Source: Nitrospinota bacterium
Lineage (GTDB): Bacteria > JADFOP01
Length of the DNA stretch: 64,000 nt
NCBI GenBank assembly: GCA_022562795.1
Contig: JADFOP010000002.1
Coordinates: 31,322-95,321 of the forward strand
Reading direction: 5' to 3'
This document shows positions 8,394-57,592 of this stretch, piece by piece. Below the pieces are notes generated by a model that did not search any database, had not been told where the DNA came from, and was given only the letters and a program-made list of their open reading frames with translations. How positions within the stretch are numbered: the first letter of the stretch is position 1; every line of letters begins with the position of its first letter. Position numbers and translations under genes: made by a program.

Positions 8394-9056
8394 ATGGAGG
8401 TCGACATACCAGCGGAGCTCAAATACGACGCTCAGGGGCTCATCCCGACCGTGGTCCAGGAGCTCGACGGACGGGTCCTCATGGTGGCGTACATGAATGC
8501 CGAGAGCCTGTCCATGACCATCGAGAGCGGCTATACCCACTTTTGGAGCCGATCGCGCCAAAAATTCTGGAAAAAGGGTGAGACGAGCGGCCACACTCAA
8601 AGGGTCCGCCGCCTATGGTACGACTGCGACTCCGATTGCCTGCTCGTCCAGGTGGAGCAGACGGGCCCGGCCTGCCACACGGGCGAGCCGACCTGCTTTT
8701 TCCAGCCCGTCGAGGCCGACTTCGGCGAGGCCGTCCCGCCCGCCGCTGGGCCGGAAGTTTTCGACCGCCTGGCCGCCGTCATCGAGGATAGGAAGGCCGA
8801 CGATCAGGATGATTCCTACGTGGCACGCCTTTCGAGGGAGGGCGGATCTGGAATTTCCCGGAAAATGATGGAGACCGCCGAAGAGGCGGCCCGTGCGGCA
8901 CATGATAAAGACCCCCAAGCCCTGGTCCAGGAGATGGCCGACCTCTGGTTCCACACCCTGGTATTGCTGGCCGACTCGGGTGTCGAGCCTAAGAACGTCT
9001 ACGGCGAGCTGGCGAGCCGATTCGGCTCCTCCGGGATGAAAGACGACGAGGGCTAA
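8394..9056 (+). CDS. hisI: Bifunctional PR-AMP cyclohydrolase / PR-ATP pyrophosphatase (HisI-HisE fusion)
   Basis: This fused enzyme performs the second and third steps of histidine synthesis. Residues 1-~110 are HisI, with metal/zinc motifs in [14 protein letters not shown] and [13 protein letters not shown]. Residues ~120-220 are HisE, a MazG-like helical pyrophosphohydrolase with the [11 protein letters not shown] and [13 protein letters not shown] helices. AAGGAGGAG precedes the ATG. It closes the cluster and meets a convergent gene. HisG (and HisZ) are absent from the locus although HisI/HisE need their product. Confidence 0.96.
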
Positions 9057-9128
9057 GAAACGTCATACGTTAGGGGCGCTCTAGAGTAAAATTGAGACAA
9101 AAATCCTAGCAAGCTACCTCTCGCCACT

Positions 9129-9971
9129 TCAGCGTTCGGCGGCCATCTGGCCGATTGCGACGCGGGCCTTCGCGGCGAGGTGGTGGGAGGGATATTCGGT
9201 CTCCAGCTCCTTCCATCGCTTGAGAGCTTGAACCTTGTCATTGAGCCTGTGGAATGACTCCCCCGCATGATAGAGCGCATCGGGCCGCTTGGGGCTCTCG
9301 GGAGCCCTCTCGAGCAGCTGGCTTAAGCTCGAGGCAGCCGCCATCGGTCGGCCTCGGGCCAGCTCTGCCCGGCCAATGAGCAAAAGCGCCTCATCAGCCT
9401 TCTTCCCATCCTTGGTCCGCTCTAGGTAGAGTTCCAGCTTCTCGACAGCCGCCTCGATCTCTCCGGCCTCAAAGTGACGTTGGCCGAGCCGGAAGAGCTC
9501 ATTGGACGACCGCTCTCTGATAATCGAAATTGGACGTCGTACAATCTTGTTGAGGCGCGAGAGGACTGAAGCCACTTTTCCCGTAGCCGATTTCAACACC
9601 GTAGGCGGAGGGGGTGGAAGGGGCGTAGCCTTTGGTGATGGGTCTTTAGGGGGCGGGCGGCGGGCGGCCAGGGGAAAGGGCTCTTCGGTCGGCGCCGGCA
9701 GATTCGCCAAGGGATTATCGCCAACGGAGGATAACCACGGGTGGTCGGAGAGGCGCGCCATCTTGCGCTCGACGGAGTCGAGACGTCGGGTAAGCTGGTC
9801 CCGCTCACGGCGTAGCGAGGAGACCTGACCCTCCAGATCCTCCACATGCTTCTCTATAAAGTAAGTATCGGGAGCGGCGTCCCTTCTCATGCGGGGCAGG
9901 GCCGTGCAGCCAGCGATGAGGAAAAACATGGCGCAGCAGCATGCAGCAACCACCTTTCCCCGTATTCTCAT
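9129..9971 (-). CDS. CpoB/YbgF-like lipoprotein with coiled coil and TPRs
   Basis: Probable envelope lipoprotein, 280 residues. The N-terminal signal ends in the lipobox LIAGC (Cys ~21). A coiled coil follows (EKHVEDLEGQVSSLRRERDQ), then a proline-rich linker, and residues ~160-280 carry TPR-type repeats of the YbgF family (LFRLGQRHFEAGEIEAAVEKL onward). CpoB coordinates peptidoglycan synthesis with Tol-Pal during constriction. Here tol and pal genes are not adjacent, so the assignment is by architecture. It is the last gene of a minus-strand run with the bactofilin-TPR gene and rimI. Confidence 0.7.
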   Translation of the reverse strand: MRIRGKVVAACCCAMFFLIAGCTALPRMRRDAAPDTYFIEKHVEDLEGQVSSLRRERDQLTRRLDSVERKMARLSDHPWLSSVGDNPLANLPAPTEEPFPLAARRPPPKDPSPKATPLPPPPPTVLKSATGKVASVLSRLNKIVRRPISIIRERSSNELFRLGQRHFEAGEIEAAVEKLELYLERTKDGKKADEALLLIGRAELARGRPMAAASSLSQLLERAPESPKRPDALYHAGESFHRLNDKVQALKRWKELETEYPSHHLAAKARVAIGQMAAER

Positions 9972-43569: not shown

Positions 43570-45153
43570 TTAGGGGCCGCTCTTCCCTCCCAACCTGCTC
43601 CCCTGCACTTTATACACTATCACGGGCAGCTCGGCTGAGGCGAGACCGGGCTGGTAGAAGCGGGCGACCTCCACGAGCGGCAGCTCCGCCGGCTCCGGCC
43701 CCCAGGCCCGCCGGTAGACTGTCCGGAAGACCTCCTCCGACGCCACGAGGAATCGCACCCCGTGGCGCTCGCAGTAGCTCCACAGCTTTCGACGCCGAAC
43801 CCATGGCAAAAGCTGGTTGTTCACCGAGCCGTCCAGGTCGATCGCCGTCCGTCCGCTCACGTAGCTTAAGATGCCCACGTTGAATCCCGCCAGCCGTGTG
43901 CCCGGCGGGGTATGTTGGGTCACCCACCGCGCCGCTTGCAGGGAGCTCGTCTGCCAGGGGTAGAGCCCCTCCTGCCAGCTTCGCCAGCCCACCCCGATGT
44001 AGAGGACCGCCACGGCCAAGAGCAGGGCGCGGACGGTCGCCCGCCCCCAGGGGCGGTCGGCCAGCAACGCCGCTCCGCACCCGAGGGTGACGGCGGTAAG
44101 CAGCACCACCGGAGCGAGTCGCCAGGGCCTCACAGTCCAGAAGACCGCCCCGTGGACGGCCAGGGTTGCCAGCAGCCCCACGGCCAACGGGCCCAGCATG
44201 AGAGCGATGGTCCTCGAGCGCTGCGGGTACTGCGTTCTCTGGTCCAACGCCCCGATCCCGACGATCAGCAGGGCCGCGATCGCGAGATACGAGAGCCCCG
44301 TGGCCCGAGGAAGGTCGTTAAAGAAGGTCTGGCGGAGGAGGCTTAGCCCCACGGCGGCCCACGGCCCCCACCCCGGGCCCGCCACGGCTTGGAAGTTTTG
44401 ATGCAGGACGGTGGGCGCCGCCCACACGCTCGCGGTGGCGGCTGGGCCGAAGGTCACCCAATTCCAGGCGGCCCAGGGCGCTACGACCAGGGAAGCGCTG
44501 AACGAAATCTTGTAGAGGGCGGCCACTCTCCCCCAGCCCCTATCGACGACGAAGACGGTCCCGAGGAGCGCGACCACAAAGCCGAGGTTGTCGAGGTTCG
44601 CCAGCACAGCCGCCCCGGCGGCCAGGCCGAGCAGCCAGCCACCCCCCGGAGGGCGGCGAACCAAGAGCAAGACGCAGGCGATCAGAAAAAGGAGGCCGGC
44701 GGCCGTCTCCAGTCCGTTGACGCTCAGGGCGACCGCCATGGGATTCCACCAGTAGGCGACCATCCCCACCAGGGCGGCGGTCCGGTTTCCGAAAGCTACA
44801 AGGAAGAGCCGATAGAGAACGAGGGCCGTTAGGCCGTCGAGGAGTACCCCCGCGGTGAGAACGCCGTGCAGGGTAAATGGGCTTTCGGGGCCGAGCAACG
44901 TAGTCAGCCCCGCCACCGCGCCCATCCACAGTGGGTGGAAGCCGTTGGTGGGGGCAAGCGTATCGAAGGTCGGCCCCAACCCCTCGACCAGGTGGCGGCC
45001 TATTGTGAGGTAATGGAACGCGGCGTCGGGGAGCACCTTGGAGATGAGGATAGGCAGAGGTTTCCAGGCGACGGCTAGCCGGACAAGCAGGCCAAGGACG
45101 AAGGCGCCCAGGGCGAGCAAGCGATGTCCGCCGGTAGCTGGAGGAAGCCTCAC
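43570..45153 (-). CDS. Polytopic membrane protein, GT-C glycosyltransferase-like
   Basis: 527 residues with about 11-12 hydrophobic helices and a soluble C-terminal part of ~120 residues. An early loop after helix one, KVLPDAAFHYLTIGRHLVEG, followed by TNGFHPLWMG, resembles the acidic first loop of GT-C enzymes such as ArnT/PMT that use lipid-linked sugars. No direct assignment is possible. The GTG start overlaps the thiDN stop (GTGA, 45150-45153), so it is translationally coupled to a thiamine gene without obvious reason. Confidence 0.6.
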   Translation of the reverse strand: MRLPPATGGHRLLALGAFVLGLLVRLAVAWKPLPILISKVLPDAAFHYLTIGRHLVEGLGPTFDTLAPTNGFHPLWMGAVAGLTTLLGPESPFTLHGVLTAGVLLDGLTALVLYRLFLVAFGNRTAALVGMVAYWWNPMAVALSVNGLETAAGLLFLIACVLLLVRRPPGGGWLLGLAAGAAVLANLDNLGFVVALLGTVFVVDRGWGRVAALYKISFSASLVVAPWAAWNWVTFGPAATASVWAAPTVLHQNFQAVAGPGWGPWAAVGLSLLRQTFFNDLPRATGLSYLAIAALLIVGIGALDQRTQYPQRSRTIALMLGPLAVGLLATLAVHGAVFWTVRPWRLAPVVLLTAVTLGCGAALLADRPWGRATVRALLLAVAVLYIGVGWRSWQEGLYPWQTSSLQAARWVTQHTPPGTRLAGFNVGILSYVSGRTAIDLDGSVNNQLLPWVRRRKLWSYCERHGVRFLVASEEVFRTVYRRAWGPEPAELPLVEVARFYQPGLASAELPVIVYKVQGSRLGGKSGP

Positions 45154-46514
45154 CGTTTTTGGCTGCGTGCCTTACGCGCCAGGGCCCCCTGGATGGCCAG
45201 GACCTTCTCCACAACCGCCTCCGGCGAGACGCCGAGGACGCGGATCATGGGCTCCTTGCCGTGGCCGCCTGTGTCGTAGATGACGTCGGGGACGCTGCCG
45301 GCCCGGCCGATGGCCTCTACGGTGCCCCACTCGAGGCTCGCCCCCTCGCGGCGCCTGACGGCAGGTGGCTCGTTAGAGCGGTCGAAGGCCCCGACCGCCA
45401 GCTTAACCTTCCGGCAGGCCGCGAGAATTCTCTTCTCGTAGCGGAGATTCATGGCTGCGCGTACGGACGGATCGTGGCCCATGGCCGCCAGTATCACGGC
45501 TGCCACGTGCTGGCTCGCCCCAAAGCTCGGCGGGGACACCTCCCGGACGGTCTCGCCCACCCGGTGAATTCTACCGGGGAAGGCGGCCACATCACGGCGG
45601 TCCAGCGCCTTCGGCAGGGCGTAACCCAGGTTGGTCTGGACCTCCGGCACCAGGGTGCCGATCCTAGCGGACTTGAGCCGCTCCAGGGCGGAGGTGAGAC
45701 TATCTATTACGTGGGACCGGTGGAGGGCCTTGTGGATGGTCGCGGCTGGGTCGGCCGGCCCCGTACCGCCTCCGATGGCCAGCCCATGCCGGATGGCCTC
45801 GGTGACGAAGCGCTTTGCACGGTTCACCGCCTCGGCGAGCGAGGCCCCACGGGCTAGGTGGGCGGCGGTGGCCGCTGCGAGGATGCAGCCGGTGCCGTGG
45901 GTGTTGGGCTGATCGATACGCTCGGAGACGAGCTCCGTCACGGTCCGGCCGTCGAAGAAGATGTCGATGGCGCGGCCCCGCCCGTGGCCGCCTTTGACGA
46001 GCACGCTTTTGGGCCCCATCCGCTTGAGGGCCCGGGCCGCCTCGGCCATGTCAGCCATGCTCCGAAGACGCTTTCCCAACAGAACCTCGGCTTCGGGCCT
46101 ATTTGGCGTGATCACTGTGGCCAGGGGAAAGAGCCTCTCCACCAGGGTCCGGACCGCCTCGGGCATAAGAAGCGAGTCGCCGCTTTTTGCCACCATCACC
46201 GGGTCTACCACGAGATTGGGAATCCCGTGCTCGACAGCTTTCTTGGCCACGTGCTCGATTATCTCGACGTTGGAGAGCATTCCCGTCTTTGCGGCGGCCA
46301 CGGGGAGGTCCGAGCAGATGGCGTCGATCTGGCGGCCGATAATGTAGGCCGGCAGGTCGTAGATGTCGGTTACCCCTCGGGTGTTTTGGGCTGTCACAGA
46401 GGTTATAACGCTTGTCCCGAAGACTTCGAGCGCGGTGAAGGTTTTAAGGTCGGCCTGAATTCCCGCTCCGCCACCTGAGTCAGAACCCGCAATTGTAAGC
46501 GCAACGGGAATCAT
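45150..46514 (-). CDS. thiD: HMP kinase ThiD fused to ThiN-type thiamine-phosphate synthase
   Basis: 454 residues. The first ~265 are ThiD, the kinase that phosphorylates hydroxymethylpyrimidine twice: LTIAGSDSGGGAGIQADLK, VVDPVMVAKSGD, and the anion-hole NTHGTGCILAAA. The last ~180 are ThiN, a thiamine-phosphate synthase unrelated to ThiE (TNLGYALPKALDRRDVAAFPGR onward, then YDTGGHGKEPMIRVLG). ThiDN is best known from archaea and a few bacteria. The enzyme would join HMP-PP and thiazole phosphate. No TPP riboswitch is visible upstream. Confidence 0.88.
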   Translation of the reverse strand: MIPVALTIAGSDSGGGAGIQADLKTFTALEVFGTSVITSVTAQNTRGVTDIYDLPAYIIGRQIDAICSDLPVAAAKTGMLSNVEIIEHVAKKAVEHGIPNLVVDPVMVAKSGDSLLMPEAVRTLVERLFPLATVITPNRPEAEVLLGKRLRSMADMAEAARALKRMGPKSVLVKGGHGRGRAIDIFFDGRTVTELVSERIDQPNTHGTGCILAAATAAHLARGASLAEAVNRAKRFVTEAIRHGLAIGGGTGPADPAATIHKALHRSHVIDSLTSALERLKSARIGTLVPEVQTNLGYALPKALDRRDVAAFPGRIHRVGETVREVSPPSFGASQHVAAVILAAMGHDPSVRAAMNLRYEKRILAACRKVKLAVGAFDRSNEPPAVRRREGASLEWGTVEAIGRAGSVPDVIYDTGGHGKEPMIRVLGVSPEAVVEKVLAIQGALARKARSQKR

Positions 46515-49506: not shown

Positions 49507-49524
49507 AAAATAGTTGACTATTTT
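49507..49524. promoter_or_regulatory. 18-bp palindrome overlapping cysK -35 (candidate operator)
   Basis: AAAATAGTTGACTATTTT is an inverted repeat with 8-bp arms around TG, and the TTGACT -35 of the cysK promoter lies inside it. A bound dimeric regulator would block RNA polymerase. The Rrf2-family regulator encoded at 57.1 kb, in the same sulfur cluster, is the obvious candidate; this pairing is inferred. Confidence 0.6.
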
Positions 49525-49596: not shown

Positions 49597-50574
49597 ATGG
49601 GCCGGAAATGCTTTACAGACGCCTGCGACCTCATCGGAAACACTCCCCTGGTTAAGCTTCGCAGAACCACGGCGAAGGACGGGGCAAACGTCTACGCCAA
49701 GCTGGAATTTTACAATCCAGGCGGGAGCGTGAAGGACCGGATTGCCCTGTCGATGGTTGAGGATGCCGAGCGACACGAGCTCCTCCAGCCGGGCTGGACG
49801 ATCGTTGAGCCGACCAGCGGGAACACGGGAATCGGCCTGGCGATGGTGGGGGCGGTCAAGGGCTATCCCGTCGTGATCGTAATGCCGGAGGATATGACCT
49901 TTGAGCGGATCAACATCCTCAAGGCCTTCGGGGTTGAAGTGGTCTTAAGCCCTCCCGAGCAAGCCATGCAGGGAGCCGTGGATGAGGCTGGGCGGCTGCA
50001 GGCCGCAAACGAAAACTGGTTCATGCCACAGCAGTTCAACAACAGCGCGAACCCGGAGGTTCACCGACGGACAACGGCGAGAGAGATTCTCCGCTCCTTG
50101 GCCAAGGAGCCCATCCACGCCCTTGTAGCCGGCATCGGCACCGGGGGGACCATCACCGGGGTCGGCGAGGTCCTGAAGGGCCGCTATCCCGATCTATTAG
50201 TGGTCGGGGTGGAGCCTGCATCGAGCGCCGTCCTTTCGGGCAATAAGCCAGGGATGCACATGATTCAAGGCATCGGGGCGGGATTTATCCCGAAGGTGCT
50301 CAACCAACAGATCCTCGATGAGATAATGACCGTGACCGACGAGGATGCCTACCAGGCGGCCAAGCAGGTGGCTGCCGAGGAGGGGCTATTCGTCGGTATA
50401 TCGGCTGGAGCCGCCTATTGGGCGACCCAGAAGGTAGCAGAACGGCTGGGACGGGGAGCGACGGTGGTGACCGTCTTCCCCGACGGGGGTGAGCGGTACC
50501 TCTCTTTTGAGCGGTATTTCAGTTGGCCTGAGCGGGAGGAAGTGGCCGCAGAGGTTTCGGCCGACGGTCGATAA
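49597..50574 (+). CDS. cysK: Cysteine synthase A (O-acetylserine sulfhydrylase)
   Basis: PLP enzyme forming cysteine from O-acetylserine and sulfide. The 325 residues contain the PLP lysine in NPGGSVKDRIALSM, the substrate loop EPTSGNTGIGLAM and the cofactor-phosphate loop GIGTGGTITG. The start is a clear ATG with GGGAG upstream. It stands before the SAM riboswitch, with its own promoter and palindrome, so it is regulated separately from the operon behind. A second synthase (CysM-like) lies at 54.3 kb. Confidence 0.95.
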   Translation: MGRKCFTDACDLIGNTPLVKLRRTTAKDGANVYAKLEFYNPGGSVKDRIALSMVEDAERHELLQPGWTIVEPTSGNTGIGLAMVGAVKGYPVVIVMPEDMTFERINILKAFGVEVVLSPPEQAMQGAVDEAGRLQAANENWFMPQQFNNSANPEVHRRTTAREILRSLAKEPIHALVAGIGTGGTITGVGEVLKGRYPDLLVVGVEPASSAVLSGNKPGMHMIQGIGAGFIPKVLNQQILDEIMTVTDEDAYQAAKQVAAEEGLFVGISAGAAYWATQKVAERLGRGATVVTVFPDGGERYLSFERYFSWPEREEVAAEVSADGR

Positions 50575-50578
50575 TCCA

Positions 50579-50608
50579 TTGACGACCGCAGCGTCGTTGT
50601 GGTAGGTT
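50579..50608 (+). promoter_or_regulatory. Putative promoter for SAM-riboswitch operon
   Basis: TTGACG (50579-50584), 18 bases, TAGGTT (50603-50608). Transcription would begin near 50615, just before the aptamer at 50628, as expected for a riboswitch leader. Confidence 0.5.
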
Positions 50609-50627
50609 CTGCTCTCCCATAGGATAA

Positions 50628-50741
50628 TCTTATCCAGAGCGGCGGAGGGACGGGCCCTTTGAAGCCGCAGCAACCGGCTCCCAGTCCGGGGAGTGTCCGG
50701 TGCTAAATCCCGCAGGGTCCCCGGACCTTGAAAGATGAGAA
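50628..50741 (+). ncRNA. SAM-I (S-box) riboswitch aptamer
   Basis: The 5' leader carries the SAM-I conserved core in order: CTTATCCAGAGCGG, GGAGGGAC (50644-50651), GGCCC, GAAGCCGCAGCAACC (50661-50675), GGTGCTAAATCC (50699-50710) and GATGAGA (50734-50740). P1 forms between TCTTATC (50629-50635) and GATGAGA. With SAM bound, P1 holds its 3' strand and lets the downstream terminator form. Without SAM, GAGAAGA (50737-50743) pairs with TCTTCTC (50773-50779) as antiterminator. It controls the ThrC-like/CysO operon. Confidence 0.95.
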
Positions 50742-50770
50742 GACCCGGCCGGCCTAGCGCGTACGGGAGG

Positions 50771-50799
50771 CCTCTTCTCGCCCCGGGAAGAGGTTTTTT
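50771..50799 (+). terminator. Riboswitch expression-platform terminator
   Basis: CCTCTTC (50771-50777) pairs with GAAGAGG (50787-50793) and is followed at once by six T (50794-50799). Its 5' arm overlaps the antiterminator partner, so aptamer and terminator are mutually exclusive. High SAM should stop transcription 33 bases before the ThrC-like start. Confidence 0.92.
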
Positions 50800-50832
50800 G
50801 CTGGATGCCGGACCCGCTTAAGGGGAGGCGAT

Positions 50833-52071
50833 ATGAGTTTCGTCCTCGGTCTCAAATGTCGTGAGTGCTCGAGGGAGTATCCAAAAGAGCCCCTTCACGT
50901 CTGCGAATACTGCTTCGGCCCCCTGGAGGTGGTCTACGACTATGAGGGCATCGGGAGGGTCATAAGCAGGGAGAGCATCGAGGCCGGCCCCAATAGCATG
51001 TGGCGCTACCGTCCTTTGCTGCCCATCGACGGTGAGCCCGCCGTGGGGCTCCACGTCGGAATGACCCCTATGATCCGGACAAAACGCTTGGGCAAAGCCC
51101 TGGGGCTTAACAACCTCTACGTGAAGAACGACAGCGTCAATCACCCCTCATGGAGCTTCAAGGACCGGGTGGTCAGCGTCGCCATCACTAAAGCCCGGGA
51201 GTTCGGCTTCGAGGTGGTGGCCTGCGCCTCCACCGGGAACCTGGCCAACTCGGTGGCCGCCATGGCGGCTCAGGCGGGGCTCCAAAGCTACATCTTCATC
51301 CCCGCCGACCTGGAGGAGGGAAAGGTTCTGGGAACCCTCATCTATGGAGCGAATCTCATTGGTGTGAAGGGCTCCTACGACGACGTCAACCGCCTCTGCA
51401 GCGAGATTGCCGCCAACTATCACTGGGCGTTCGTCAACATCAACATCAGGCCCTATTACGGCGACGGCTCCAAGACATACGCCTATGAGGTCGCCGAGCA
51501 GCTCGGCTGGAGGGCGCCCGACAACATAATCGTCCCCGTGGCCGGCAGCTCTCTCATCATCAAGATCGACAAAGGGTTCAAGGAGCTAGCTTCCTTGGGG
51601 CTCATCCCTGAGGCCGCGTGCAAGGTCTACGCGGCCCAGGCGACCGGCTGCAGCCCCGTGACCACGGCGATCAAAGAGGGGGAAGACTTCTTCCGGCCGG
51701 TCAGGCCCAACACCATCGCCAAGAGCATCGCTATCGGAAACCCCGCCGACGGAATCTACGGCATCCGGGTAGTCAAGGAGACCGGCGGATGGGGCGAGGA
51801 TGTAACCGACGAGGAGCTCGTCGATGGCATGAAGCTGCTCGCCGAGACGGAGGGCGTCTTTACCGAGACGGCAGGCGGCGTTGTCGTAGCGGTGGCCCGC
51901 AAGCTCGTCAAACAAGGGCGCATAGACAGCGATGACCTCACCGTGCTCTCCATTACCGGCCACGGCCTAAAGACTCAGGAGGCCGTTATCGGAAAGATCG
52001 GCACTCCTTTGCTCATCGAGCCGAGACTCAGCTCGTTCGTCGATATGTTTAATAACCCCAAGAAGGAGTAA
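50833..52071 (+). CDS. thrC: Threonine synthase-family PLP enzyme (ThrC-like) under SAM riboswitch
   Basis: 412 residues with a short N-terminal zinc-ribbon-like CxxC pair (CRECSREY, CEYCFG) and a fold-type II PLP core. The PLP lysine is in NHPSWSFKDRVVSVA, where typical threonine synthases have NPTGSFKDR; the substrate loop is ACASTGNLANSVAA, and the cofactor loop is VPVAGSSLIIK. Threonine synthase acts on O-phosphohomoserine. The SAM riboswitch and the sulfur-carrier gene 4 bases downstream suggest this paralogue may instead make homocysteine from the same substrate. The family call is secure; the reaction is open. Confidence 0.85.
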   Translation: MSFVLGLKCRECSREYPKEPLHVCEYCFGPLEVVYDYEGIGRVISRESIEAGPNSMWRYRPLLPIDGEPAVGLHVGMTPMIRTKRLGKALGLNNLYVKNDSVNHPSWSFKDRVVSVAITKAREFGFEVVACASTGNLANSVAAMAAQAGLQSYIFIPADLEEGKVLGTLIYGANLIGVKGSYDDVNRLCSEIAANYHWAFVNINIRPYYGDGSKTYAYEVAEQLGWRAPDNIIVPVAGSSLIIKIDKGFKELASLGLIPEAACKVYAAQATGCSPVTTAIKEGEDFFRPVRPNTIAKSIAIGNPADGIYGIRVVKETGGWGEDVTDEELVDGMKLLAETEGVFTETAGGVVVAVARKLVKQGRIDSDDLTVLSITGHGLKTQEAVIGKIGTPLLIEPRLSSFVDMFNNPKKE

Positions 52072-52075
52072 CGCC

Positions 52076-52357
52076 ATGGCTATCACGGTGCGCATACCCA
52101 CACCTCTTCAGGGCTTGACGCAGAACCGGGCCGAGGTCGATGCCAAGGGCAGCAACATCAAGGAGCTTGTGGAGGACCTTGATCGGCAGTATCCAGGCAT
52201 CAAAGAGCGCATCTGCGACGAAACAGGCGCCATCCGCCGGTTCGTCAACATCTACCTGAACGATGAGGACATCAGGTTCATCGATGGAGACTCAACTGCG
52301 GTCAGGGAGGGCGACGACGTCTCGATTATCCCCGCCATCGCGGGCGGCTCGTGCTAA
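52076..52357 (+). CDS. cysO: CysO/MoaD/ThiS-type sulfur carrier protein with GGSC tail
   Basis: 93-residue beta-grasp protein: TVRIPTPLQGLTQNRAEVDA, the DLDRQYPGIKERICDE helix and the end VSIIPAIAGGSC. Such carriers bear sulfur as a C-terminal GG thiocarboxylate; most end in GG. Here Ser-Cys follows, so it should be a precursor that needs trimming, like QbsE, which is clipped by a JAMM peptidase. A JAMM gene lies at 56.7 kb. The AAGGAG site and 4-base spacing couple it to the ThrC-like gene. Confidence 0.92.
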   Translation: MAITVRIPTPLQGLTQNRAEVDAKGSNIKELVEDLDRQYPGIKERICDETGAIRRFVNIYLNDEDIRFIDGDSTAVREGDDVSIIPAIAGGSC

Positions 52358-52409
52358 GAGCCCTCTTAGGACTTAACTACAAGCTTCGCATGGTGTGGAG
52401 ATCAGAACC

Positions 52410-53390
52410 ATGACACACCGGGATACGAAAATTAGTATAGATAAGAAGACGTCGGTGAGCTACGGCAAGAGGCCCTACCGTGCAAGGGCTGTAGGGTTGC
52501 TTGGATGCGCGGGGCTCTTCATCTCCTTATTGGTATTTGGGGCGACGTCCTGGACCACCCTGACGGCCTGGGCGGCCGGGTATCCCAACGACCGGCTCCT
52601 GGTTGATACTACCTGGGTGGCCGAGCACGGGAAAGATGAGGGAGTGCGAATCCTCGACGTGCGACCTATTGGAGAGTACATGCAGGGTCATATCCCCGGG
52701 GCGGCTCACTTCGACGTGGCCCAGGTTAGGGTCGAGCGTGGCGGCGTAAAGGGAATGCTTCCTCCGCCTGAGGTGCTCAACGCCATCTTCGGCGACCACG
52801 GGATCAGCCGAGAGAACACTGTTGTCCTATACGACGGGAAAGGAGGGCTTTGGGCCTCGCGCCTCTTCTTCGCCCTGGACTACATGGGCCACCCCGACGC
52901 CCGCCTCCTAAACGGCGGGTGGCTGAAGTGGTCCCGTGAGAGACGGCCCGTAACCCGGGCCCCTGCGCGCGTGGAGCCGGCCACCTACCGCGGACGGCCC
53001 GACCCCGAGAAGCTTGCCGACGCCTCCTGGATAGTTGCCCACCTCAACGACCCGACCGTAAAATCCCTCGATACCCGGAGCGCGGGCGAGTATCTAGGCA
53101 AGGATGTTCGATCCGCCCGGGGAGGCCACATCCCTGGGGCCGTGAACGTCAACTGGGTCGAGAACGTAAGCGGACCGAGCATGGGCTTCAAATCCGCCGA
53201 CGAGCTCCAGGCCATCTACACCAAGGCCGGGCTCACGCCGGACAAAGAGGTGGTGCCCTACTGCCAGAGCCACGTACGGGGCAGCCATTCCTACTTCGTC
53301 CTCAAGCTTTTGGGTTATAAGAAGCTCAGAGGCTACGACGGATCGTGGAATGAGTGGGGAAACCGATCGGACCTACCTTTGGGTAAGTAA
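52410..53390 (+). CDS. Tandem rhodanese sulfurtransferase with N-terminal membrane/export segment
   Basis: 326 residues from the ATG at 52410 (in-frame GTG at 52395). Residues ~29-55 form a hydrophobic segment ending LTAWAAG, so the enzyme is exported or anchored facing the periplasm. Two rhodanese domains follow (~60-190 and ~200-322). The first lacks a cysteine at the active-loop position (VVLYDGKGGLWA); the second has it in PYCQSHVRGSHSYFVLKLLG. It would move sulfane sulfur from thiosulfate or 3-mercaptopyruvate. An export-type sulfur donor in a cytosolic carrier operon is odd. Confidence 0.85.
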   Translation: MTHRDTKISIDKKTSVSYGKRPYRARAVGLLGCAGLFISLLVFGATSWTTLTAWAAGYPNDRLLVDTTWVAEHGKDEGVRILDVRPIGEYMQGHIPGAAHFDVAQVRVERGGVKGMLPPPEVLNAIFGDHGISRENTVVLYDGKGGLWASRLFFALDYMGHPDARLLNGGWLKWSRERRPVTRAPARVEPATYRGRPDPEKLADASWIVAHLNDPTVKSLDTRSAGEYLGKDVRSARGGHIPGAVNVNWVENVSGPSMGFKSADELQAIYTKAGLTPDKEVVPYCQSHVRGSHSYFVLKLLGYKKLRGYDGSWNEWGNRSDLPLGK

Positions 53391-53422
53391 TGGGGAACGA
53401 CACCTAACGTGGGCGGACGACA

Positions 53423-54310
53423 ATGAACCCTATGGATGATAATCCACTACTGGTGGAGACCGCCTGGCTCGACCTCAGGCGGAGGGACCAAGATCTAGTG
53501 ATCTTGGATACGCGGCGACGGACTCAGTATCTGATGGGACACATCCCGGGGGCGGTGAGCTTTCCCATGCGGAAAGTCACCGACGAGCGCTTCTGGAGCC
53601 CTGGCTTCCTCCCCAGCGAGGAGGAGTTGCGGCGGCGTCTGGGCTTGGCCGGATTCAGGCGCGACGATTATCTCGTGGTCTACGATGACGGGGACGGACT
53701 GGCAGCTTCCCGCGTCTTCTGGGCTCTTGATTACCTTGGCCACCCTAGGGTTAGCCTCCTAAACGGTGGGTTTTCCAAATGGAGCTACGAGGGCCGGGGG
53801 CGCAGCCTTCGCCGCCACAAGAGGCCCAAGGCATCATATGAGGGGAGCCCAGTCCAGCAAAGGCTTGTGGGAGCTGAGTGGATCCACCACCGGTTGGCCA
53901 GCGGCCATGAGCTAGTCCTCATCGACTGCCGCTCAGCCGACGAATACACCGGAGCCCGCCGAAAGGCTGCCCGCTGTGGGCACATTCCCGGAGCCGTTCA
54001 CGTTGAGTGGACGCGCAATCTGCGCGAGACGGGGCCCTGTCCCGTCTTTAGGGACCGCGAGGAGCTTTTGGCCCTCTACCAGGGAGCGGGGGCCGACGAT
54101 GGTTTGCCTCTGGTCACTTACTGCCAGGCCCAGGTTAGAGGGTCGCACACCTACTTCGTGTTACGCTGGCTTGGGTTTAAGGCGGTCTACGGCTACGAGG
54201 GCTCGTGGGGCGAGTGGGGCAATGACCCCCAGATGCCCATTGCCACCGGCGACGAGCCGGGACGCATTGTGGAGACCCGTGAGGGGGAAAGGGGCAAAGC
54301 GCCCTTCTGA
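53423..54310 (+). CDS. Tandem rhodanese sulfurtransferase, cytosolic
   Basis: 295 residues with no signal peptide and two rhodanese domains. The N-terminal one is inactive-looking (VVYDDGDGLAASRV) and the C-terminal one carries the persulfide cysteine in TYCQAQVRGSHTYFVLRWLG. It is a clear paralogue of the preceding exported protein, with the same catalytic loop pattern. In this operon it is the best candidate to hand sulfur to the adenylated carrier, a job done by a fused rhodanese in other systems, because the MoeB-like enzyme here lacks that domain. Confidence 0.88.
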   Translation: MNPMDDNPLLVETAWLDLRRRDQDLVILDTRRRTQYLMGHIPGAVSFPMRKVTDERFWSPGFLPSEEELRRRLGLAGFRRDDYLVVYDDGDGLAASRVFWALDYLGHPRVSLLNGGFSKWSYEGRGRSLRRHKRPKASYEGSPVQQRLVGAEWIHHRLASGHELVLIDCRSADEYTGARRKAARCGHIPGAVHVEWTRNLRETGPCPVFRDREELLALYQGAGADDGLPLVTYCQAQVRGSHTYFVLRWLGFKAVYGYEGSWGEWGNDPQMPIATGDEPGRIVETREGERGKAPF

Positions 54311-54344
54311 CCAACATAACGCAAGACGATAAGGAAGAATATCG

Positions 54345-55277
54345 ATGTTGCACGCCAGAGGCCCAATGCTGAACGCCCCGCAGGATAGGGCGTGCCACAT
54401 CTTGGAGCTGATAGGCAACACCCCGCTGCTGCGCCTCAACCATTTGGGGAGGGCCTTTCCCCGCGTGGAGATTTACGCCAAGGCGGAATGGATAAACCCG
54501 GGAGGCAGCATCAAAGACAGGCCCGCGCTTAAGATGCTTGAGGTGGCCGAAGAGACGGGCGAGCTGACAAAGGACAAGACCATCCTCGACTCCACGAGCG
54601 GGAACACCGGCATTGCCTACGCCATGATAGCCAGTATCAAGGGCTACAGGGTCGAGCTCGTCATGCCAGCCAACGTCAGTGAGGAGCGCAAAAAGATAGT
54701 CACCGCATACGGGGCCAACATCATATACTCCAGTGCCTTGGAGGGCTCCGACGGAGCCCAGCTCAAAGCCAAGCGCCTCCTGGAGGAGTATCCTGAGAAA
54801 TACTTTATGCCCGACCAATACAACAATGAGGCCAATTCGCTCGCTCACTACGAGACGACGGGGCCAGAGATTCTCGAGCAGACCGAAGGGACCATCACCC
54901 ACTTCGTTGCTGGCCTCGGCACGAGCGGAACCCTCATGGGCACCGGCCGTCGACTAAAAGAGTTCAATCCCGACATCCAGCTCATCGCCGTCGAACCGAA
55001 GCACGCCCTCCACGGACTGGAAGGCTTAAAGCACATGGAGAGCTCCATCGTCCCGCAAATATACGATAGAAGTTTCCACGACGAACTCATCCCCGTGAAA
55101 ACCGAGGATGGATACGATATGGCCCGCCGGCTGGCTCATGAAGAGGGGCTGTTTATCGGCCACTCGTCCGGCGCCGTGATGGTGGCGGTACTGGAGGTGG
55201 CCTCAAGGATCAAGGAGGGTGTGGTGGTCACTGTCTTTCCCGACGGAGGCGACCGCTACATTTCGACCAATTTTTAG
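54345..55277 (+). CDS. cysM: CysM-like cysteine synthase (thiocarboxylate/OPS type)
   Basis: 310-residue fold-type II PLP enzyme. PLP lysine in NPGGSIKDRPALKM, substrate loop STSGNTGIAYAM, cofactor loop LGTSGTLMGTGRRLKE. The last loop resembles mycobacterial CysM, which uses O-phosphoserine and CysO-thiocarboxylate rather than sulfide. Being in one operon with carrier, E1 and JAMM genes supports that role. AAGGAAG precedes the ATG at 54345; ATG 54366 is an alternative start. Confidence 0.9.
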   Translation: MLHARGPMLNAPQDRACHILELIGNTPLLRLNHLGRAFPRVEIYAKAEWINPGGSIKDRPALKMLEVAEETGELTKDKTILDSTSGNTGIAYAMIASIKGYRVELVMPANVSEERKKIVTAYGANIIYSSALEGSDGAQLKAKRLLEEYPEKYFMPDQYNNEANSLAHYETTGPEILEQTEGTITHFVAGLGTSGTLMGTGRRLKEFNPDIQLIAVEPKHALHGLEGLKHMESSIVPQIYDRSFHDELIPVKTEDGYDMARRLAHEEGLFIGHSSGAVMVAVLEVASRIKEGVVVTVFPDGGDRYISTNF

Positions 55278-55324
55278 CCCCAATACCACCGCCCGGGCTT
55301 TTGCACGTCCACGGGAGGCGTCAC

Positions 55325-55588
55325 ATGGCCGAACGATTCGTTGACCTGACGGTCCCGGAAGCCATGATAAAAGAGCCGATTATATATTCCTTGGGTCAGC
55401 AGTTCGACGTGGTCCCCAACATTTTCCGAGCCGACGTTACCCCAACGACCGGATGGGCGATCCTTCAGCTCGAGGGGGAGGAGTCTGAGATCGAGCGTGC
55501 CATCGAGTGGCTCCAGGGCCACGGCATCACCGTGAAGGTCGGAGGGGAGGAGCTGCTTCAAGCTCGCGACGAGGCCGAGGGCTCGTAA
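55325..55588 (+). CDS. Stand-alone NIL-domain protein 1
   Basis: 87 residues from the ATG at 55325, which has GGGAGGCG upstream; a TTG at 55301 is unlikely. The whole chain is one NIL ferredoxin-like domain (VDLTVPEAMIKEPIIYSLGQ, ADVTPTTGWAILQLEG), known as the methionine-binding C-terminal part of MetN. It has no cysteine, so it cannot hold an iron-sulfur cluster like the archaeal NIL-ferredoxin proteins. It could sense methionine or act as an adaptor. Confidence 0.82.
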   Translation: MAERFVDLTVPEAMIKEPIIYSLGQQFDVVPNIFRADVTPTTGWAILQLEGEESEIERAIEWLQGHGITVKVGGEELLQARDEAEGS

Positions 55589-55594
55589 GGTCCG

Positions 55595-56398
55595 ATGCGT
55601 GCAGAGTTCACAGAAGAAGAGATCCGTAGGTACGGTTGCCAGATGGTCCTGCCCGAGGTGGGCGACGTCGGCCAGGCAAAGCTCCGGGCCGCCGGTGTGC
55701 TCATAATCGGGGCTGGGGGTCTGGGCAGCCCTGTAGCCATTTACCTCGCGGCTGCGGGTGTGGGGAGACTCGGTATAGTGGACAGTGACGAGGTGGAGCT
55801 GTCGAACCTACATCGGCAAATTCTCCACACCGAGGAAGCCGTTGGCCGGCCCAAGGTTGAAAGCGCCCAGACTATGCTTGGGGAGGTCAACCCCCTGGTG
55901 GAGGTGCAGACCCATCCCATGCGCCTTCAGGCGGCCAACATTGAGGCCCTCATCGCCGGCTACGACGTCGTGGTGGACGGGAGCGACAACTTTCCGACCA
56001 AGTTCCTCGTCAACGACGCGTGCGTCTTCGCCGAAAAACCTCTCTCGCTGGCTGGTATTCACCGCTTTGAGGGCCAGGTGATGACCATCGTTCCAGGCCA
56101 GGGGCCCTGCTATCGGTGCATATTCATCGAGCCGCCCCCCGAGGGGGCCATCCCCAGCTGCGAGGAGGCCGGAGTCTTCGGGGCCGTGGCGGGCCTGGCC
56201 GGGTGCATTCAGGCGGTTGAGGTCGTAAAACTCATTCTGGGGATTGGGGAGCCTCTCGTCGGCTCCATCCTGCGCATCGACACCCTCCGGGGCTCTTTTC
56301 GAACAGTCCCGGTCAACCGCAACCCCAACTGCCCCGTGTGCTCCGAGGAGGCGACCATTACGACGCTGGTGGACCAAAGCCTTGTCTGCAGCGAATAA
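55595..56398 (+). CDS. moeB: MoeB/ThiF-like E1 adenylyltransferase
   Basis: 267 residues. ATP site LIIGAGGLGSPVAIYLAAAG, the adenylation arginine/asparagine in DEVELSNLHRQILH, magnesium aspartate in VVDGSDNFPTK and two zinc CxxC pairs (CYRC, CPVC). It should adenylate the GG end of the sulfur carrier so that a persulfide can displace AMP. There is no C-terminal rhodanese domain, unlike many MoeZ proteins; two separate rhodaneses are in the operon. It lies between the two NIL genes. Confidence 0.93.
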   Translation: MRAEFTEEEIRRYGCQMVLPEVGDVGQAKLRAAGVLIIGAGGLGSPVAIYLAAAGVGRLGIVDSDEVELSNLHRQILHTEEAVGRPKVESAQTMLGEVNPLVEVQTHPMRLQAANIEALIAGYDVVVDGSDNFPTKFLVNDACVFAEKPLSLAGIHRFEGQVMTIVPGQGPCYRCIFIEPPPEGAIPSCEEAGVFGAVAGLAGCIQAVEVVKLILGIGEPLVGSILRIDTLRGSFRTVPVNRNPNCPVCSEEATITTLVDQSLVCSE

Positions 56399-56420
56399 CC
56401 CTCACGCGAAGGAGGCGGCC

Positions 56421-56663
56421 ATGGCCATCATCCGTGTGCAGCTTACCTTTCCTCAAGAGTCAGTCAAGCGGCCCGTCATTTACGAGATCGGAAAAGAGTT
56501 CGATGTGGTAACGAACGTCCGACGGGCCAACGTCACGGCGACCTCGGGGTGGGTGGTGCTCGAGCTAAGCGGCGAGCGGGAAGAGATCGAGCGGGCCCTC
56601 GAAGGCTTTAAATCCCGTGGGGTGAGAGTCGATCCGGTTGAGGGTGATGTGGTCAGTCCATGA
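56421..56663 (+). CDS. Stand-alone NIL-domain protein 2
   Basis: 80 residues, ATG at 56421 with GGAGG upstream; an in-frame extension back to 56244 lies inside the E1 gene and is not real. One NIL domain (VQLTFPQESVKRPVIYEIGK, RANVTATSGWVVLELSG). By eye about half its residues match NIL protein 1, including FDVV-N and EIERA, so it is a local paralogue. It lacks cysteine. The role is unknown, but the pair sits inside a SAM-controlled sulfur operon. Confidence 0.82.
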   Translation: MAIIRVQLTFPQESVKRPVIYEIGKEFDVVTNVRRANVTATSGWVVLELSGEREEIERALEGFKSRGVRVDPVEGDVVSP

Positions 56664-56673
56664 GGTTGATTGA

Positions 56674-57111
56674 ATGTTACGGGTTCCAAGCTCTATCGTT
56701 GAGGCCATGTTCGACCACGCTAAGAAAGAGGCTCCTAATGAATGTTGCGGCCTTCTTACGGGCAAGGACGGGCTGGCTACACACCACTACCCGGCGACGA
56801 ACGCCGATAGCAGCCCCACCACATACTCCATCGAGTCGCGTCAGCTCTTTGAGATTCATCGGGCTGCTCGCGACGCTGGGCTAGATATTTTGAGCGTCTA
56901 TCACTCTCACACCATGACCAGGGCGTACCCGTCACCAACCGACGTCAACCGGGCCTTCTGGAATGGGACCGAGCTGGAGACATACCCCGGGTGCATTCAC
57001 CTGATCATTTCGCTGGCCGAGGGTGACGAGCCCGTCCTCAGGGGTTTTCGTATCCCCTCTCGAGAGACCATCGAAGAGGTTCCCGTCACGATTATCAGAG
57101 ACACCACGTAA
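56674..57111 (+). CDS. mec: JAMM/MPN+ metallopeptidase, Mec family
   Basis: 145-residue zinc peptidase. The JAMM glutamate is in NECCGLLTG and the zinc motif is VYHSHTMTRAYPSPTDV (HxHx7Sx2D). Mycobacterial Mec releases cysteine from the CysO-cysteine adduct; QbsD and HcyD also trim carrier C-termini. Here one enzyme may do both jobs: clip Ser-Cys from the GGSC precursor and free the product amino acid. It lies 10 bases after NIL 2. Confidence 0.93.
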   Translation: MLRVPSSIVEAMFDHAKKEAPNECCGLLTGKDGLATHHYPATNADSSPTTYSIESRQLFEIHRAARDAGLDILSVYHSHTMTRAYPSPTDVNRAFWNGTELETYPGCIHLIISLAEGDEPVLRGFRIPSRETIEEVPVTIIRDTT

Positions 57112-57124
57112 GGAGACGAGCCCA

Positions 57125-57592
57125 GTGAAGTTTACCAGTCGCGGCCGGTACGCTGTGAGAGCGATGATTGATTTGGCCTACCACACCCTGGAGCATCCCG
57201 TGAGCCTCGCCACCATTGCTGTGCGGCAGGGGATTTCGCAGCACTACCTGGAGCAGCTCTTCGTGCGGCTGCGTCGGGCGGAGCTGGTCCGAAGCGTGCG
57301 CGGGCCCGGCGGAGGCTACTTTCTAGCTAAAGAACCCATAGCGATCTCCGTACGCGACATCTTCCTGGCCGTAGACGAGTCCCTCAGCACTCCGGAGTGC
57401 GAAAAGTTGACCAATCCCGACCAGGAGCCCTGTGACCGACTCGACGAATGCGTCTCCCGAGTCATTTGGAAGAGGGTGGCCGATCAGGTGGCCCAGGCCC
57501 TTAACTCCGTCAGCCTCGAAGACCTGTGCATGGAGCGCGAGAAGCTCGACAAGAGCGAAGTCTTTTCCCACACTTACGGTTTCAACATCTAG
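57125..57592 (+). CDS. Rrf2-family transcriptional regulator (IscR-like)
   Basis: 155 residues with GTG start at 57125 (GGAGACGAG upstream); the frame's extension into mec is not real. Winged helix with KFTSRGRYAVRAMIDLAYH, ISQHYLEQLFVRLRRAELV and the RGPGGGYFLA wing. Three cysteines (PEC, PCDRL, DEC) with spacing C-x10-C-x5-C match the iron-sulfur ligand region of IscR but with a longer first gap. It probably senses Fe-S or cysteine status. The palindrome at the cysK promoter is a candidate target. Confidence 0.92.
   Translation: MKFTSRGRYAVRAMIDLAYHTLEHPVSLATIAVRQGISQHYLEQLFVRLRRAELVRSVRGPGGGYFLAKEPIAISVRDIFLAVDESLSTPECEKLTNPDQEPCDRLDECVSRVIWKRVADQVAQALNSVSLEDLCMEREKLDKSEVFSHTYGFNI

Follow-up and report, generated by a model that had tools for sequence, protein, structure and literature searches.

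A gene cluster in the stretch of Nitrospinota bacterium DNA analysed here (the window, 64,000 nucleotides of contig JADFOP010000002.1) probably encodes an operon, repressed by S-adenosylmethionine (SAM), for the parallel synthesis of homocysteine and cysteine on a single protein-thiocarboxylate carrier, a reading to which we assign a probability of about 0.68. An open reading frame scan, together with Rfam and Pfam/NCBIfam searches, recovered every part named in the original prediction for this DNA, in the same order and all on the + strand: cysK, a SAM-I riboswitch, a homologue of threonine synthase (ThrC), a small sulfur carrier, two rhodaneses, a CysM-like synthase, a NIL domain protein, an E1-like adenylyltransferase, a second NIL domain protein, a JAMM/Mec-type peptidase and an Rrf2 regulator.

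The ThrC homologue resembles MetM, and its neighbourhood is conserved. Among 117 loci encoding MetM relatives, a carrier was nearby in 106, a NIL protein in 67, an E1 in 51, Mec in 32 and CysM in 28. This recurrence of MetM and carrier with E1, CysM, Mec or NIL across many phyla indicates that the arrangement is not due to chance.

The MetM-like enzyme and its riboswitch

In a 65-row quick tree, the ThrC-like enzyme was placed inside a 34-row MetM clade (support 100*) that includes cyanobacterial, aquificotal and actinobacterial sequences and is separate from the threonine synthases. By this placement, it is a member of the MetM clade and not a threonine synthase. Fixed motifs also distinguish the two groups, with RPYYxEGSK and SFKDRVV in MetM-like sequences compared with NPYRxxGQK and SFKDRGM in ThrC. 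According to a passage of PMC12172450 that discusses Hasebe et al. 2024, MetM is a homocysteine synthase, and a SAM riboswitch lies upstream of metM in S. albulus.

The riboswitch in the window is the sole SAM-I element found in its genome (2.15 Mb, 97% complete). An antiterminator (50736-50743 paired with 50773-50780) is mutually exclusive with both the P1 helix (50628-50634 paired with 50734-50740) and a strong terminator (50770-50794) that is followed by a T run. Because P1 and the terminator both compete with the antiterminator, the layout is that of an OFF switch, and constrained folding gave -94.8 kcal/mol for P1 plus terminator compared with -87.8 kcal/mol for the antiterminator form. 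We predict that SAM holds P1 and that transcription then ends before metM. As cysK lies 5' of the switch and is preceded by a strong promoter-like site of its own (TTGACT-16-TATAAT at 49514, from a promoter scan), it is probably outside SAM control, which is predicted to extend from metM to Rrf2. The proposal that SAM shuts down the cluster is therefore retained, as a predicted OFF switch, for metM to Rrf2 and dropped for cysK. Intergenic spacing from metM through Rrf2 is only 4-52 nt (the carrier gene starts 4 nt after metM), making a single transcript of ~6.8 kb plausible.

Of 241 genomes drawn from across the domain, 43 encode MetM relatives (46% identity or higher), and relatives are also encoded in at least 583 candidate stretches of the GTDB contig set. 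A SAM-I riboswitch is present in 12 of these 43 genomes and in all 12 is located upstream of metM, at ~0.4 kb or less in ten and ~1 kb in two. Further riboswitch-metM pairs occur at loci L097, L115 and L144 and in the actinomycete Nonomuraea (L200), where the carrier ends in GG.

MetM is likely to be the homocysteine route of the window's own genome. A search there for full-length enzymes of the MetB/MetY/MetC family (PF01053) found none at E 1e-50, the best cross-match being partial (31.8 bits over ~85 positions), and a profile search of the genome returned no HcyBio (PF01837), leaving MetM as the likely source of homocysteine. The same two absences rule out a Wolinella-type MetY route and an L-ASST route, respectively, in this genome. 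Across the 241 genomes, an enzyme of the cystathionine gamma-synthase (CGS) type is missing in 30 of the 43 with MetM compared with 71 of the 198 others (p = 6.5e-5), and CGS-type and HcyBio routes are both missing in 26 of 43 compared with 39 of 198 (p = 2.7e-7), p values that are optimistic given that the genomes are not independent. MetM points to the probable homocysteine route of many uncultured and autotrophic bacteria in which the classical enzymes are missing. A 2018 study states, in one section, that at least one homocysteine pathway is still to be found and names Aquifex aeolicus (PMC5764234), a gap on which MetM records from Aquificaceae bear. Four such records (L134, L138, L153 and L157, one of them titled Aquifex aeolicus) carry MetM, with a carrier adjoining in two.

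A carrier probably shared by two branches

The closest solved structure to the carrier is Mycobacterium tuberculosis CysO. In the carrier's IAGG-SC tail, Ser-Cys lies beyond the Gly-Gly, and the tail is predicted to need trimming to GG. Among related carriers, a short tail follows GG in 55, GG is the C terminus in 33 and the chain continues into a NIL domain in 13; a count by hidden Markov model gave 14 carrier-NIL fusions, with GG inside the chain. In-frame fusions directly after AGG were seen at L058, L061, L062, L064, L069, L071, L073, L075, L079, L097, L100, L111, L128 and L161. With the NIL domain in that position, a free carrier C terminus would require cleavage. A passage of PMC4326299 reports that MoaX of M. 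tuberculosis, which is a fusion, has to be cut after Gly-Gly.

A single CysO-class carrier was found in 14 of the 16 genomes searched, including the window's own. This count, the principal evidence for sharing, makes it likely that the cysteine and homocysteine branches use the same carrier, which probably feeds both MetM and CysM. Additional CysO-class matches were found in G002 and G050, and in G213 the single carrier is on a different contig from metM. The original idea of both branches on a single carrier gains from this result; its Wolinella-type homocysteine branch is not upheld, as the genome lacks a MetY-type enzyme. A role in molybdenum cofactor or thiamine synthesis only, which the original prediction had named as one outcome that would count against it, was rejected: a MoaD-MoaE fusion and ThiS are encoded elsewhere in the genome as dedicated carriers, and there are no moa or thi genes within the cluster.

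The CysM-like enzyme has features of carrier-dependent cysteine synthesis. At the position of Arg220 in M. tuberculosis CysM (sequence checked against 3dwg_A), all CysMs aligned from MetM loci have Lys or Arg, including Lys in the window, and nearly all CysKs have Gln. Arg220 binds the phosphate of O-phosphoserine. CysM uses O-phosphoserine and CysO, according to a passage of PMC12910592. A CysE above its curated cut-off was present in 8 of 16 genomes. Ten genomes have CysM but no CysK in the cluster, and in 7 of these CysE is either absent or scores under that cut-off. At least one clear JAMM match was present in all 16 genomes examined.

From these parts we infer a course in which JAMM would trim the -SC tail of the carrier, exposing Gly-Gly, and the E1 would adenylate that end. 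Sulfur from a donor, which may be the cytoplasmic rhodanese, IscS or sulfide, would then turn the adenylated carrier into the thiocarboxylate. MetM would move the carrier sulfur onto O-phosphohomoserine to give homocysteine, CysM would move it onto O-phosphoserine to give cysteine, and JAMM would free the amino acid if still attached to the carrier. Acting on the riboswitch, SAM would halt transcription, with methionine feedback probably added by the NIL proteins. More tentatively, the two enzymes may draw on one protein-bound sulfur pool, with one thiocarboxylated carrier serving both, SAM gating it by the riboswitch and methionine through NIL subunits, and with the carrier in many lineages made as a carrier-NIL proprotein that needs a peptidase such as JAMM.

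Several observations weigh against a shared pathway of this kind. Thirteen of the 43 MetM genomes do have a CGS-type enzyme, and PMC12172450, on a MetM relative from Microcystis, treats that enzyme chiefly as a threonine deaminase and reports no rise in methionine when it was induced. The window E1, at 267 aa, has no fused rhodanese or extension; such a fusion was found in 1 of 61 E1 proteins from related loci. The window CysM ends in ISTNF and lacks the C-terminal tail of M. tuberculosis CysM, which closes over the active site, and the genome holds both CysE and CysK, so that CysM is not its sole cysteine route. The missing tail and the presence of CysE and CysK, together with the layout most often seen, a MetM-carrier pair lacking CysM (89 of the 117 loci have no CysM nearby), would also fit an operon dedicated to homocysteine, in which MetM alone uses the carrier while CysM takes free sulfide or serves some other purpose. 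We regard this as unlikely given the Lys/Arg phosphate-site signature of the cluster CysMs, the single CysO-class carrier in most genomes, the absence of CysE from several CysM genomes and the recurrence of CysM with carrier, E1 and JAMM in distant phyla, such operons without MetM having been noted already in 2006 (a section of PMC1779556).

Two further alternatives are far less probable. If the ThrC-like enzyme were an ordinary threonine synthase beside CysO-type cysteine genes, its ThrC family sequence and its score above the TIGR00260 thrC cut-off would be expected, but the SAM riboswitch upstream of the gene, the adjoining sulfur carrier gene, the distinct clade and the differing active-site residues would not. 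Moreover, a separate ThrC is encoded in the same genome (C6:51443-52498), and 41 of the 43 MetM genomes have at least one ThrC-type match besides MetM. Tree row L171 is a MetM that adjoins a ThrC within one locus. A true threonine synthase was accordingly rejected on the riboswitch placement, the second ThrC and the separate clade, and where a gene annotated as threonine synthase adjoins that of a sulfur carrier, it probably encodes MetM. It is similarly improbable that the carrier acts mainly as a tRNA-thiolation or protein-conjugation modifier resembling TtuB or SAMP, with the amino acid enzymes as side users: the SAMP1-like and MoaD-family scores of the carrier and the desampylase-like match of the JAMM protein are all below curated cut-offs, and they are set against a steady linkage to MetM and CysM, SAM control and CysO as the top match. 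A side role of the carrier in tRNA thiolation is conceivable alongside homocysteine and cysteine synthesis.

Relation to described pathways

The homocysteine half of the cluster is of the MetM/MetO kind, which is already known. Streptomyces MetM reportedly converts O-phosphohomoserine with thiocarboxylated MetO. The Streptomyces system and the window operon have in common a ThrC-homologous enzyme, an adjoining carrier and an upstream SAM riboswitch, with O-phosphohomoserine the likely substrate, whereas the window operon adds CysM, E1, JAMM, two NIL proteins and Rrf2 and its carrier tail is GG-SC rather than the terminal GG of the MetO-system carrier. In a passage of PMC12172450, metO is described as similar to the carrier gene beside thrC studied there. 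The view that a ThrC-like partner sets the cluster apart from described systems is not upheld, as the combination of such an enzyme with a SAM riboswitch and a carrier is that of the published MetM/MetO system (PMC12172450, same passage).

The cysteine half is CysO/CysM/Mec-like. It shares with the CysO-CysM-Mec-MoeZ system of M. tuberculosis a CysO-type carrier, a positive charge at the R220 position of CysM and a JAMM protein, but lacks the fused E1-rhodanese and the CysM tail, and MetM, NIL and SAM control come in addition. In Wolinella succinogenes, homocysteine is said to be made by an HcyS/HcyD/HcyF/MetY pathway in which MetY uses O-acetylhomoserine. This pathway resembles the cluster in having carrier residues beyond GG, a JAMM protein, a standalone E1 and homocysteine as the product, and differs in its use of a PF01053 enzyme. 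Operon types 4c (ThiS/MoaD-like protein, JAB, E1 and cysteine synthase) and 4e (E1 without rhodanese) of Iyer et al. 2006 match the carrier, JAB, E1 and cysteine synthase set and the E1 lacking a rhodanese, but the sections of that paper on these operons (PMC1779556) mention neither a threonine synthase homologue nor NIL. The L-ASST pathway (HcyBio plus NIL/ferredoxin) shares the NIL domain, as a passage of PMC12068725 describes it, whereas HcyBio is missing from the window's genome and the window NIL proteins have no ferredoxin domain.

The cluster thus appears to be a variant, present in several phyla, that unites MetM/MetO with CysO/CysM/Mec. We found no description of this combination in the open-access literature searched, most subscription journals being outside the search. 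Such a cluster would bring together, by way of a single carrier, two protein-thiocarboxylate routes that were described separately, a merger on which little has been published.

NIL proteins, rhodaneses and parts of the locus

A NIL protein is found near MetM in 18 of the 28 loci with CysM and in 49 of the 89 without, suggesting that NIL tracks the homocysteine branch. Neither NIL protein of the window contains cysteine, so methionine binding fits them better than sulfur handling. In the homocysteine system of methanogens, methionine is bound by the NIL domain, which regulates the enzyme (a passage of PMC12068725). The window proteins probably sense methionine, pointing to a function for NIL domains that stand alone.

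Both rhodaneses are peculiar to the window locus. No rhodanese related to either copy was found near metM in related loci, barring one antisense and one marginal match, and rhodaneses dedicated to the pathway, as originally proposed, were ruled out as a conserved part. Rhodanese 1 has a hydrophobic N-terminal segment ending in AWA-A (hydrophobic peak of 2.26 at residue 32) and is probably exported or membrane-anchored, which would probably place it outside the cytoplasmic pathway. Rhodanese 2 is a candidate sulfane-sulfur donor.

Table 1. Features of the cluster, in window coordinates; the starts of NIL 1, NIL 2 and Rrf2 were set by ribosome-binding sites. PLP, pyridoxal phosphate; Mtb, M. tuberculosis.
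Feature	Position	Strand	Evidence
cysK, O-acetylserine-type cysteine synthase A	49597-50574	+	TIGR01139 413.8 bits; Gln at Mtb CysM R220 position
SAM-I riboswitch aptamer	50627-50741	+	RF00162 85.3 bits, E 9e-19
Riboswitch expression platform	50736-50803	+	Pairing and constrained folds; predicted OFF switch
MetM-like PLP enzyme (ThrC homologue)	50833-52071	+	MetM clade; signature residues; carrier adjoining in other genomes
CysO/MetO-type sulfur carrier, ThiS family	52076-52357	+	Ends IAGGSC; Mtb CysO (3dwg_C) match E 3.6e-22
Rhodanese 1, double-domain, N-terminal signal/anchor segment	52395-53390	+	Pfam Rhodanese
Rhodanese 2, double-domain, cytoplasmic	53423-54310	+	Pfam Rhodanese; CQAQVR loop; signal segment absent
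CysM-like, predicted O-phosphoserine/carrier-dependent cysteine synthase	54345-55277	+	Lys at Mtb CysM Arg220 position; TIGR01138 372 bits, under its cut-off
NIL domain protein 1, predicted methionine sensor	55325-55588	+	PF09383 E 2e-15; zero cysteines
E1-like adenylyltransferase, MoeB/ThiF type	55595-56398	+	PF00899 270 bits; GAGGLG, CYRC/CPVC and SCEEAG motifs
NIL domain protein 2	56421-56663	+	PF09383 E 5.6e-16; zero cysteines
JAMM/Mec-type metallopeptidase (Prok-JAB)	56674-57111	+	PF14464 E 1.3e-20; HSH-x10-D motif
Rrf2-family regulator (IscR/CymR-like), three cysteines	57125-57592	+	PF02082 129.8 bits

Some related proteins were noted in passing. The window's genome encodes a third ThrC homologue (L001:1276-3153, 625 aa), with a C-terminal extension resembling the LeuA regulatory domain. 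Among carrier-type proteins, L009:1057-1743 encodes a MoaD-MoaE fusion that resembles MoaX of M. tuberculosis and has GG within the chain, and L012:1435-1665 encodes a fourth ThiS-family protein, which is small and has GG as its C terminus. A ThiD-like protein at 45150-46514 of the window has a C-terminal extension that, judged by eye, resembles ThiN. Outside cellular chromosomes, a Chlorohelix plasmid encodes a 'threonine synthase' (36%) with no carrier annotated beside the gene. A phage search matched Listeria phage records, which may be host sequence, and a 40% MetM/ThrC-like protein at 8536-9729 of MT836106.1, an unannotated record that originates from human faecal samples, bears the label Bacteriophage sp. 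and possibly reflects contamination.

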